Shown piece after piece: positions 8,058 to 34,578 of a stretch of 64,000 nucleotides of DNA. Under the pieces are notes generated by a model. It ran no database searches and was not told the DNA's origin. It saw only the letters and a program-made list of their open reading frames with translations. This DNA is from Planctomycetota bacterium (lineage in GTDB: Bacteria; Planctomycetota; Phycisphaerae; UBA1845; UTPLA1), in the NCBI GenBank assembly GCA_016235815.1, contig JACRIM010000039.1:62001-126000 (forward strand), in the 5' to 3' direction. The translations under genes and the position numbers were made by a program. Every line of letters starts with the position of its first letter. The stretch's first letter is position 1.

Positions 8058-8125
8058 CGAAGTCGATTTCAGCCCAGCATGATTCGGCGCCAACCCAACT
8101 CACGACCAGGCCGCGACTTGCGCGC

Positions 8126-8200
8126 CGCAGAAAAAATAATCAAAAACCCCCTTGCCTCCAAAAACCCGTGCGCTATATTTGTTAGGTAACAGTTAGGAAT
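8126..8200 (+). promoter_or_regulatory. Promoter-like head of dispersed repeat, copy 1
   Basis: TTGCCT (8152-8157), a 16-base spacer and TATATT (8174-8179) resemble a sigma70 promoter, preceded by an A-rich tract (8131-8145). GTTAGG follows at 8181-8186 and again at 8192-8197, an 11-base direct repeat over the expected start point. The same arrangement occurs on the minus strand at 34325-34373, although the spacer sequence differs there. Confidence 0.55.
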
Positions 8201-8760
8201 CGGCCAAAAAGGAAACCAGCCCATGACCGCCCACGCACAATCCCCGTTCGCTAAGGCTCGACTGAAGTGTGCCGGCTGTTTTTCAAAGACCGTGTCAGCT
8301 TGTGTCACTTCCTGTCAGTTTTTTTTGCCGGCCCCCCGCCTGCGACATTCTGCGAAACCAGCGGTTTCGCCTGTCGGCAACAACCCGCAACGATTTGCGG
8401 CTCCAAGTGCCTGCTATCCGCAACAACGTGCGGCTTCTTGCGGCCAAAAACCGCGATTTGCGGCTATTTGCGGGGGCTCCCGTTTTTTGGACCCGAGCCT
8501 TCAAGGCTCGCGTCCTCTCCGCAGTTTACCAGCCGCAGCGAGCGCCTTCGTGCCTCAGTGCCCTTGTGCCTTCCTCTGTTCCCTGTTCCCCGTTCCCAGT
8601 TCCCTCTTCCCCCAGCACCTCAAGCCTCAAGCCTCAGGTCTCAAGACTCAGGACTCAAGCCTCAAGCCTCTTCCCCCCAAACCCTTTGTGCGTTTTTGCA
8701 CGCGGTAAAACAGTTTTTTGCACTTTTTTGTGGGGGTAGTTTTTTTTCGGCTAACCCGCC
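8126..8760 (+). repeat. Promoter-headed low-complexity repeat, copy 1
   Basis: Beyond the promoter-like head, this copy shares with the 34-kb copy an ATTTGCGGG word, GTTCCCCGTTCCC runs and a tail with TTTTGCAC followed by a G-run and TAG/TAC. Modules are in different order in the two copies. It runs convergently into the 3' end of the glycosyltransferase gene. Confidence 0.6.
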
Positions 8761-19305: not shown

Positions 19306-19347
19306 AACGACCGGTCTCGCAGGTGCGGGGCCGGTCGTTTTTCTTTT
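19306..19347 (+). terminator. Intrinsic terminator of the PQQ protein gene
   Basis: AACGACCGG (19306-19314) pairs with CCGGTCGTT (19331-19339) around a 16-base loop and runs into TTTTTCTTTT. It lies 73 bases after the PQQ gene stop and only 12 bases before the purH start, so purH either has a promoter inside this segment or depends on read-through. Confidence 0.8.
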
Positions 19348-19358
19348 CAAGGGATGCT

Positions 19359-21704
19359 GTGGCCGAGCGCAAGATTAAGCGGGCACTCATCGCCGTCTAT
19401 GACAAGACCGGCATCGCGGATTTCGCCCGCGCCCTCGTGGACGAGTTCGGTATCGAGATCATCTCCACCGGTGGTACGGCCAAGCATCTGAAGGACGCCG
19501 GCATCCCCGTCACGATGGTCGAGGAAGTAACCGGCTTTCCCGAGATGCTCGACGGCCGCGTGAAGACCTTGCACCCGAAGATCCACGCAGCCATCCTCGC
19601 CGACCGCGACAACCCAGAACACATGCGCCAACTCGCCGAGCACGGGATCAAGCCGATCGACATGGTGGTGGTGAATCTGTACCCGTTCGAGAAAACGGTG
19701 GCCGACCCGAACTGCACGATGGAGCAGGCGATTGAGATGATCGACATCGGCGGGCCGTGCATGTTGCGTGCGGCGGCGAAGAATCATCGGCATGTGCTGG
19801 TGGTTCCTTACAGTTGTTACGACGAAGTCCTGGCATACTTGCTGGGGATGCCTTCGCAACGCGACGTGCGTCAATACAACACCGCATGTGCGTTTGCGCT
19901 TACCAATGAGTATGACAAACGGATTGTCGAGTATTTTCAGGGCCGGGTTGGAGGCCGCAATGCATGGAAACGCGCGAACGCCGCTTCTGCAATTCCATGG
20001 GATGCACCTGACTCGCTTGACCTCGATTTAGAGTTGATCTGCCCTTCGAAATACGGCGAAAACCCTCATCAGCGAGGAGGCTATTACGGCTCCAACGACG
20101 GCGGGATTGAGAGGTGCCTCCAGATTCTGGGCGACTTCATAGCGGCGCAACCGACCATCTCATTCAACAACTATGTCGATGCCGATGCAGCCTTGGCGTT
20201 GTGTTCCGAGTTGACGCAGGCAGGTGAGGCTTTGTGGCACCGGTTTTCAACCGGTGTCTGTAGCACAGGTTTTCAACCTGTGCAGGTCCGCCCGGATGTC
20301 ATTGAGACTCGGAAATCAACATCCATTCAATTTGAGACCATAACTCGCCGCAATCTCCCCCATCTCCAGGTCCCCGGATCAACCTACTTTGTGACATTTC
20401 GGCTGCGCGCGGGGGTACTCGTGCCTGAGGAACGCTCAATTGTCCTTGACGCTTGCAAGTTCTGGCACGGGAAAAAAATGACACTGCATTGTGTGGTGAT
20501 CATGCCGGATCATGTTCACCTGCTGATGACACCACACGAGTTGTCACCGGGCAATTGGGTTCCGCTGAGTGAGCTGTTGCATAGCATCAAGCGGCATTCC
20601 GCAAATGAAATCAATAAGGCCCGCGGTGCGACTGGTTCACTTTGGCTGGATGAGTCCTTTGACCGAATGGTGCGAAACAACCGCGAGTTCATGGAGAAAT
20701 GGGAGTACATGGAGGCCAACCCGGTTACTGCCGGAATAGCGAAACCCGGTGAATACCCATGGTGGTGGCAGTCGAGTACGGGGTTTCAAGAGACTCTCGA
20801 TGACACTCACAGGTTGGAAACCTGTGATACAGGACACCGGTTGGAAACCGGTGCCACAGGTTCGGGTGCCGCAAGTGCTGGTTCTCCTAAGAGTGCGACC
20901 TGCTGTTTCATCAAACACACCAACGCCTGCGGAGTCGGAGTGGCGGATGATCCGATCGAGGCCTATCGACGGGCGTACCTCGGCGATGTGAACGCAGCCA
21001 TGGGCGGGATTCTCGCCGTGAACTTCGTAATAACCGCCGAGTTCGCCGAGGCGGTCATGCACTCGTTGGATCGCTGGGGCAAGGCGGAAGGGGCCGGGGC
21101 GTTTTTTGTTGAAGTGTGGGTCGCGCCCTCGTTCGACGAAGACGCGGTCAAAGTAATTCGCAGTGCCAAGAAATGGGGCGAAAACGTTCGCCTTCTCGCG
21201 GTGGGCGACATGAGCGCCGCGCCGGATGCTAATGCTCTTGAATACAAAACAATCGCCGGCGGCATGCTCGTTCAGACGCGCGACAATCTCGGCCTCAACG
21301 AAGATCATTGGAAGGTCGTCACAAAACGGCAACCGACCGAATCTGAAATGTCAGATCTGAGATTATCATGGCTCATCGCCAAGCACACCAAGAGCAACGC
21401 CATCAGCATCTGCAAGGACGGCATGCTCATCGGCAACGGCGCGGGGCAGATGAGTCGCGTCATGAGTTGCCGAATTGCGACGTGGCTGGCAAAGGAAAAT
21501 GGTCATTCCGACATGCTGGCGGGGTCGGCTGCAGCAAGTGATGCGTTTTTCCCCTTTCGCGACGGGCCGGACATTCTCATGGACGCCGGCGTAACGGCCA
21601 TCATTCAGCCCGGCGGCAGCAAGCGCGACGAAGACACCATCAAGGCCTGCGACGAGCGCGGCGTGGCCATGATCTTCACCGGGACGCGGCACTTCAAGCA
21701 CTAA
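19359..21704 (+). CDS. purH: Bifunctional AICAR transformylase/IMP cyclohydrolase interrupted in frame by a RAYT transposase
   Basis: An open frame of 781 codons, against about 520 for normal PurH, which performs the last two steps of IMP synthesis. The cyclohydrolase part is intact (YDKTGIADFA, STGGTAKHLKDAG, GRVKTLHPKIHA, VNLYPFEKTV). The transformylase part carries Lys519-His520 in IKHTNACGVG, GAGQMSRV and SDAFFPFRDG. Between them, about residues 294-499 are foreign: a Y1-type transposase with MPDHVHLL (His385/His387) and Tyr450, bounded by REP palindromes. No stop or frameshift breaks the frame. GTG 19359 follows AAGGGA; an upstream GTG at 19323 lies inside the terminator. Whether the fused protein folds and works is unknown, but both catalytic regions look undamaged. 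Confidence 0.9.
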   Translation: MAERKIKRALIAVYDKTGIADFARALVDEFGIEIISTGGTAKHLKDAGIPVTMVEEVTGFPEMLDGRVKTLHPKIHAAILADRDNPEHMRQLAEHGIKPIDMVVVNLYPFEKTVADPNCTMEQAIEMIDIGGPCMLRAAAKNHRHVLVVPYSCYDEVLAYLLGMPSQRDVRQYNTACAFALTNEYDKRIVEYFQGRVGGRNAWKRANAASAIPWDAPDSLDLDLELICPSKYGENPHQRGGYYGSNDGGIERCLQILGDFIAAQPTISFNNYVDADAALALCSELTQAGEALWHRFSTGVCSTGFQPVQVRPDVIETRKSTSIQFETITRRNLPHLQVPGSTYFVTFRLRAGVLVPEERSIVLDACKFWHGKKMTLHCVVIMPDHVHLLMTPHELSPGNWVPLSELLHSIKRHSANEINKARGATGSLWLDESFDRMVRNNREFMEKWEYMEANPVTAGIAKPGEYPWWWQSSTGFQETLDDTHRLETCDTGHRLETGATGSGAASAGSPKSATCCFIKHTNACGVGVADDPIEAYRRAYLGDVNAAMGGILAVNFVITAEFAEAVMHSLDRWGKAEGAGAFFVEVWVAPSFDEDAVKVIRSAKKWGENVRLLAVGDMSAAPDANALEYKTIAGGMLVQTRDNLGLNEDHWKVVTKRQPTESEMSDLRLSWLIAKHTKSNAISICKDGMLIGNGAGQMSRVMSCRIATWLAKENGHSDMLAGSAAASDAFFPFRDGPDILMDAGVTAIIQPGGSKRDEDTIKACDERGVAMIFTGTRHFKH
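20238..20282. repeat. REP pair, left side of RAYT
   Basis: Two 19-base palindromes, caccggttttcaaccggtg and cacaggttttcaacctgtg, separated by seven bases. Each is an 8-bp stem with a three-base loop. In the purH frame they encode the HRFSTG and TGFQPV peptides. Confidence 0.9.
20808..20853. repeat. REP pair, right side of RAYT (inverted)
   Basis: Palindromes cacaggttggaaacctgtg and caccggttggaaaccggtg, the mirror image of the left pair with one loop base changed. In the purH frame they encode HRLETCDTG and HRLETGATG. Confidence 0.9.
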
Positions 21705-33715: not shown

Positions 33716-34002
33716 CCGGCAGCGAGCGACGGACGTTAATGACGCGGGCCAACACAATGAATCCGCAGGTGACGGTCGGCAAGGCCGGGCTGACGGAGGC
33801 GGTGATTGCACAGATTCGCGGCGTCCTCGCGGGAGTTGATCTGCTGAAGATCCGCCTGCCGAAGGAGTCGGACGGAGACGAGTTGGCCGGGCAGATCGCG
33901 GCGGGCGTGCCGTGCGAGGTTGTGGGTCGTCGGGGGTTCACGGTGGTGGTGACGAAGGCGGGCGATGGCACGGGTGGGGAAACCGCGGATGTCGCGGAGT
34001 GA
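33712..34002 (+). CDS. yhbY: YhbY/CRM-domain RNA-binding protein
   Basis: A 96-residue protein of the YhbY family, which binds pre-50S ribosomal particles in E. coli. The signature layout is clear: SERRTLMTRANTMNPQV, VGKAGLTEAVI, LLKIRLPKES and a GRRGFTVVV end replacing the usual GR.lvLyR. Full domain length is present. Start ATG 33712 overlaps the upstream lipoprotein stop. The C-terminal ten residues are a Gly/Glu tail. Directly after the stop the dispersed repeat begins. Confidence 0.88.
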   Translation: MTGSERRTLMTRANTMNPQVTVGKAGLTEAVIAQIRGVLAGVDLLKIRLPKESDGDELAGQIAAGVPCEVVGRRGFTVVVTKAGDGTGGETADVAE

Positions 34003-34029
34003 TGCGGATTTGGTTTGGAATGATGAGAG

Positions 34030-34400
34030 GCTTGCGGGGACCGGGGGACCGGGGGACCGGGGGACCAGGGGACTAGGGGCCAAGGAGTCAAGGGTTCGAG
34101 GGTCCAAGGGGCCGAGGGTTCGAGGGTTCGAGGGTTCGAGGGACCGAGTGGAGGAAGGGGTTGGTTCGCTTGCTTTGGGTTTGCAGAGAAAGTACCCCCG
34201 CAAAATAGTGCAAAAGCCCGCAAATGGCCGCAGGTTGCAGGGAACGGGGAACGGGGAACCTGCCAGGGCGGGTCTTCGACATAGAACTGGGATTGATTGC
34301 ATGGCCGTTTGCCTCCGGGTCGGCTTTCCTAACTTATACCTAACTAATATAGCATGCGGGCGGGCCGGGGCAAGGTGATTTTGATATTTTTTTTGGCTGC
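34030..34400 (-). repeat. Promoter-headed low-complexity repeat, copy 2
   Basis: Read on the minus strand it begins with an A-rich tract, the promoter-like block and GTTAGG direct repeats, then TTCCCCG runs, ATTTGCGGG, TTTTGCAC and a G-run, then CCTCGAAC words. Sequence modules match the copy at 8126-8760. It points into the 3' end of yhbY, antisense to it. Confidence 0.6.
34325..34373 (-). promoter_or_regulatory. Promoter-like head of dispersed repeat, copy 2
   Basis: On the minus strand TTGCCC (34373-34368), a 16-base spacer and TATATT (34351-34346), then two GTTAGG copies 11 bases apart. Spacing is the same as in the copy at 8152-8197, while the spacer itself has diverged. Confidence 0.55.
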
Positions 34401-34578
34401 GCGCAAGCCGTGGCCCGGCCGGGGGTTGGGACTTGGTGGTTTCATGGAATCGCTCGGTAATTTTTGAACGCTGACGGGTGAGGCGGACAATGGTATTCTG
34501 TGTGAATACTTCTTGATTCTGCTGACGAGGTGGGTCGAGTACGACCCACCCTTCGCACTGAGCGATCAGGCCCGATCA

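Follow-up and report, generated by a model that had tools for sequence, protein, structure and literature searches.

Correia elements and MITEs are short blocks with many intergenic copies that carry a promoter and a protein-binding site. In E. coli, LexA also controls genes for toxins and small proteins other than SymE. For SymE, LexA control is described in PMC1891008. The LexA operator of alphaproteobacteria is GTTC-N7-GTTC (PMC8565304, PMC3323433); 17 LexA motifs had been counted up to the date of PMC8565304, and the LexA of Planctomycetes does not use the E. coli motif (PMC3108266).

Here we describe a block in a 64-kb stretch of planctomycete DNA (64,000 nucleotides; the window) that is probably a LexA-controlled (SOS) promoter of the sigma-70 type, dispersed in about 20 copies. 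Its direct repeat, GTTHGG-N5-GTTHGG, resembles the alphaproteobacterial SOS box in its 11-bp period and in its occurrence at the lexA, recA, imuA-imuB, and dinB promoters; the half-site, however, is GTTHGG rather than GTTC. A search of the open literature, with subscription papers outside its scope, found no report of this motif. Like Correia elements and MITEs, the block, which we call the header, is short, has many intergenic copies, and combines a promoter with a predicted protein-binding site. Unlike them, it lacks a constant 3' end, terminal inverted repeats did not turn up in the three regions examined, and the regulator that probably binds it is the SOS repressor. As with SymE, an SOS-controlled promoter would stand ahead of a short translated frame; here, however, there are about 20 copies and the frames encode no conserved protein.

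The header and its copies

Two copies of the conserved header lie in the window, on opposite strands (Table 1). Exact matches to TATATTNGTTAGGTANNNGTTAGGAA occur in the window only at 8174-8199 (+) and 34326-34351 (-), with a chance expectation of 0.00 in 100 window shuffles. An earlier note on this DNA had pointed out the two look-alike blocks, their hexamers, a pair of GTTAGG words 11 bp apart and a spacer that differs in sequence between the copies; all of these are present where it placed them, the spacer being 17 nt when counted after CTTGCC and 16 nt when counted after TTGCCT. The note had also named a genome-wide total of only two copies as part of what would count against it, and this condition fails. 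The genome to which the window belongs (G000; 4.58 Mb in 60 contigs, searched by pattern and profile only) contains 14 close copies at up to 3 mismatches, compared to 0 for a reversed control pattern, and 21 matches to a sequence-only profile of the 109-bp block at E < 1e-4, among them a truncated tandem header copy at G000:C4:12352-12454.

Table 1. Positions of the header, its predicted elements and associated features. Plain positions are those of the window; G000 denotes its genome, C a contig and L an extracted locus.
Feature	Position	Strand	Remarks
Copy 1 header (upstream CCCAAC...CTT region, A-rich tract, promoter, SOS box)	8094..8202	+	14-copy alignment
Copy 1, match to profile R1	G000:C21:70094-70201		E 1.6e-23
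Copy 1 -35 hexamer TTGCCT	8152..8157	+	conserved CTTGCC at 8151-8156
Copy 1 -10 hexamer TATATT	8174..8179	+	alignment and sigma-70-like site
Copy 1 predicted LexA operator (SOS box) GTTAGG-TAACA-GTTAGG	8181..8197	+	over the expected start site
Copy 1 reading frame, 161 aa, behind AAAAGGAAACCAGCCCATG	8223..8708	+	product not conserved between copies
3' module TTTGTGCG...TTTTTTGCACTTTTTTGTGGGGGTAG-T8	8684..8748	+	common to many copies, both header types
Copy 2 conserved header block	34323..34431	-	alignment; profile E 2.5e-22
Copy 2 CTTGCC, -35 region	34369..34374	-	alignment
Copy 2 -10 hexamer TATATT	34346..34351	-	alignment
Copy 2 predicted LexA operator GTTAGG-TATAA-GTTAGG	34328..34344	-	matrix score 24.9
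Copy 2 reading frame, 188 aa, behind GGAGG...ATG	33736..34302	-	product not conserved
Period-10 module TTTGCGGGCTTTTGCACTATTTTGCGGGGGTAC, copy 2	34188..34224	-	without a long T-run
Second header sites	G000:C27:254234, C21:1242, C29:166, C4:122808, C56:16011 and ten more (L241-L255)
Terminase and Mu-like head cluster	L256:5698-12768 (G000:C4)	-	behind second header

In the alignment of the 14 close copies, CTTGCC, TATATT, and both GTT words with their spacing show little or no variation, and the invariant form of the repeat is GTTAGG-N5-GTTAGG; the spacer between CTTGCC and TATATT has diverged among the copies. The distance between the two hexamers falls within the 16-18 nt of a sigma-70-type promoter and is conserved across copies, and TTGCCT-16-TATATT at 8152-8179 is the sole sigma-70-like site between 8000 and 8800. 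The direct repeat begins one or two bases past the -10 hexamer and therefore covers the expected start site.

The family is patchy. Among 17 genomes of the same taxonomic family it is clear only in G000 and in G008, which belongs to another genus and has six dispersed copies with CTTGCC, a TAT-containing -10, and the box; G001 yielded one partial match. In some of the G008 copies the box overlaps the -10 in a differing register, so that the operator is kept though its position relative to the -10 varies. Elsewhere in sequenced genomes, a search for promoter plus box returned one chance-like match only, in a Clostridia genome.

Low-complexity units behind two headers

Behind the header, both window copies traverse low-complexity sequence and are directed into a gene of convergent orientation, just as the earlier note had described, and the copy 2 frame extends opposite that gene. 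This layout is not general, as the genes downstream of other header copies lie in either orientation. In 12 of the 14 close copies, a pattern match places a Shine-Dalgarno sequence and a start codon 47-88 nt past the first base of the -10, and copy 2 adds a thirteenth case with GGAGG and ATG. The frames that open there are 67-202 aa long and share no protein among copies. As to the non-coding transcripts raised in the earlier note, most copies thus retain a Shine-Dalgarno sequence and ATG, but the frames behind them lack conservation. The patchwork is made up of short words repeated at 7-10 bp and of the 3' module with its terminal T-run, which is found again in many copies. In 19 copies, the three forward frames contain 68 stop codons, compared to 112 expected from dinucleotide-preserving shuffles.

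Two candidate explanations of the patchwork were rejected. Some copies share an MxRA...RCAAT start, suggesting a conserved family of small proteins; this was discarded because the reading frame of the common 3' module differs between copies. A structured RNA at the 3' module was dropped as well, with single-sequence folds surpassing shuffles by a small margin (z -1.5 to -2.2). A search of 14 loci for Rfam families returned just a tRNA.

The same type of patchwork is mostly what follows a second promoter-like header, CTGAAACRCYGAGCAAGATTGATAGGTGT, which has 15 copies in the genome (reversed control, 0). Several payload copies that lack the SOS header bear a variant of this second header.

Other observations concern the payloads and the window. 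The palindromes GTTGCGNAGCAAC, GTCGCGCAGCGAC, and CCGCCGCGGCGG recur within payloads (for example L008, L013, L029, L032, and L035) and are perhaps REP-like. In two payloads, L090 and L098 (G000:C24:55269 and C44:69767), words like GTTAGGTTTNNAGTTATG stand on the opposite strand beside the palindrome GTTCCACGTGGAAC. The window also contains a PurH-like frame of 793 aa at 19323-21704 (+), in which residues 347-481, between two PurH parts, match a REP-associated tyrosine transposase.

These units could be promoter-bearing miniature mobile elements with the SOS box as cargo, an explanation that we regard as possible although we doubt it. Dispersal of the copies in intergenic sites speaks for it, as do the tandem truncated copy, the patchwork modules common to different sites, and the palindromes and RAYT-like domain in the genome. 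Against it, terminal inverted repeats were not found in the three copies examined, the 3' end is not constant, and the same payload also occurs behind the second, unrelated header. Viral contigs searched for both headers gave no matches, which also speaks against it, and the idea of an element carried on phages was rejected. Of the mobile promoter raised in the earlier note, then, the dispersal holds, while inverted repeats in the examined copies and viral-contig copies failed to appear. We favor an SOS promoter whose payload is, at a guess, a rapidly rearranging and probable hitch-hiker.

A candidate SOS box across the order

The profile and footprint searches spanned the order. Among relatives, the N5 box lies upstream of recA at 22 of 28 loci, upstream of the lexA operon at 21 of 30, upstream of imuA/dinB at 8 of 15, and upstream of a COG2401-like ATPase gene at 13 of 27; in control stretches of the same length downstream of the SOS genes, the corresponding counts are 0 of 28, 0, 1, and 0. 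(The labels COG2401, imuA, and DUF1579 come from reading sequence and position, not from a family search.) Dinucleotide shuffles give averages of 0.06-0.39, and other spacer lengths (2-4, 6-8, 15, and 16) mostly give 0-4 matches, the exception being N6 at lexA with 11 of 30. About 20-50% of the SOS-gene loci have no box match, perhaps partly due to cut contigs or the strict wording of the pattern. At several loci the lexA operon has two boxes 23 bp apart. A search immediately 5' of the lexA start codon found no box, since another gene of the operon seems to precede lexA.

The dinB gene of G068 and a sigma-factor-like gene of G107 are likewise preceded by the box. In three genera it stands before the gene for the COG2401-like ATPase/acetyltransferase, which we predict to be a new SOS gene across the order; we had considered the box a mark of this ATPase alone and dropped that idea once recA, imuA, and dinB turned up. 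In G008, this ABC-ATPase gene (L102:3293-5586, contig C13) has an SOS box and an XRE-S24 (LexA-like) gene just before it.

The genome of the window shows the same arrangement. Boxes precede its recA (G000:C36:25293-25309), imuA-imuB, dinB, COG2401 ATPase, sigma-factor, and DUF1579-like genes, and the lexA operon has weaker boxes (scores 18.2 and 14.1). These scores come from a matrix trained on 55 sites from other genomes, all upstream of SOS-type genes (recA, lexA, imu-dinB, COG2401); it is not fully blind, as a regular expression built from the family served to gather the training sites, although the choice of genes and positions was independent. The best sites in the window are exactly the two header operators, copy 2 followed by copy 1 at 20.6; the third best scores 12.6. 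That a matrix trained on outside sites picks these two indicates that the repeat is very probably a LexA operator. The 20 dispersed copies score 16.0-26.7, compared to 21.3 for the genome's recA and 26.2 for its imuA. Examined by eye, the genome's LexA shows what is expected of a cleavable repressor: a winged-helix HTH, an Ala-Gly site for cleavage, and the residues Ser and Lys.

Because throughout the order the box precedes recA, lexA, imuA, dinB, and further genes, its repressor is likely LexA, and we very probably have in GTTHGG-N5-GTTHGG the order's LexA operator (SOS box). These positions also lend good support to the proposal in the earlier note of a regulated family with a repressor on the direct repeat.

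It is unlikely that the repeat instead serves another damage-responsive regulator, for example the XRE-S24 protein of G008. In G008, the gene with HTH_3 and Peptidase_S24 domains that immediately precedes the box-bearing ATPase gene would fit such a regulator, and matches to the LexA family also adjoin the ATPase gene in G021 and G028. An XRE-S24 protein is found beside the ATPase in only a few genomes, however, whereas TIGR00498 (LexA) scores above its curated cut-off in 29 of 31, and the box before the lexA operon itself is what autoregulation predicts.

The copies might also be decoys that titrate LexA and set the threshold of the SOS response, their transcripts being by-products. In favor of this, of the 27 sites in the genome that match GTTAGG-N5-GTTAGG with at most 1 mismatch, we attribute 19 to dispersed headers and about 5 to genes of SOS type; most strong SOS operators of this genome seem to precede dispersed low-complexity units, not repair genes. 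Yet the -35, -10, fixed spacing, Shine-Dalgarno sequence, and ATG, all kept in most copies, would be superfluous in a decoy, and we consider this explanation improbable. Finally, TATATT and GTTAGG as common promoter text without a regulator can be set aside almost entirely: the direct repeat alone is not enriched at one mismatch (27 sites compared to 35 for the reversed control), but the full block gives 14 matches against 0 and the footprint at SOS genes far exceeds shuffles and controls.

Under LexA control, the SOS-headed units would work as follows. LexA bound to the direct repeat would block initiation. Upon DNA damage, RecA filaments would promote LexA self-cleavage and so release the promoter, and all copies would fire jointly with recA, lexA, imuA-imuB, and dinB, switching on some 20 dispersed units. 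Their transcripts would carry a ribosome-binding site and a start codon, then the stop-poor low-complexity patchwork up to a T-rich end. That patchwork would be a rapidly rearranging, probably hitch-hiking payload and not a conserved gene or RNA.

The second header and a Mu-like head cluster

The second header is also found before a terminase gene, behind which lie Mu-like genes for portal, protease, major head, Gp36, and Gp37. GAGCAAG again precedes that terminase in several members of the taxonomic family. Of 114 genomes in the order, 77 encode the terminase, in most cases as a single close copy with about 45-65% identity; the best match from a phage stands at 37% identity. In the terminase tree, families f1 and f8 are separated with full support. 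Family f4 is without the terminase, one weak match excepted, and without the SOS-boxed ATPase. Orthologs in this many genomes and a family-consistent tree suggest a gene transfer agent, and the cluster looks vertically inherited.

Two similar proteins of about 180 aa are encoded just 3' of one SOS-headed unit (L010, 329 nt past the -10) and one second-header unit (L249, 355 nt past the header). Both resemble a G001 protein (L107:5158-6648) with a weak match to Mu Gp27. Separately, a gene for a protein with sigma-70 region 2 (Sigma70_r2; L104:4043-4958, at G000:C4:160042-160957, and L068) is SOS-boxed in two families of the order.

Such an SOS-boxed sigma factor might connect the second header with the SOS response. 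More speculatively, and with rather low confidence, the SOS and second (GAAAC...CAAGATTGATAGG) promoters may be two branches of a single damage programme, which would also govern the head/terminase cluster as a gene transfer agent, possibly via this sigma factor, with the low-complexity units as its working part, for example as packaging or regulatory sequences.

The motif described here is a candidate SOS box for a whole bacterial order, for which we found none reported, and it makes the order's damage regulon readable from sequence. The apparent placement of most strong operators before dispersed low-complexity units and not before repair genes was unexpected. The second header, in turn, points to a phage-head cluster that is possibly linked to damage and seemingly conserved by descent.
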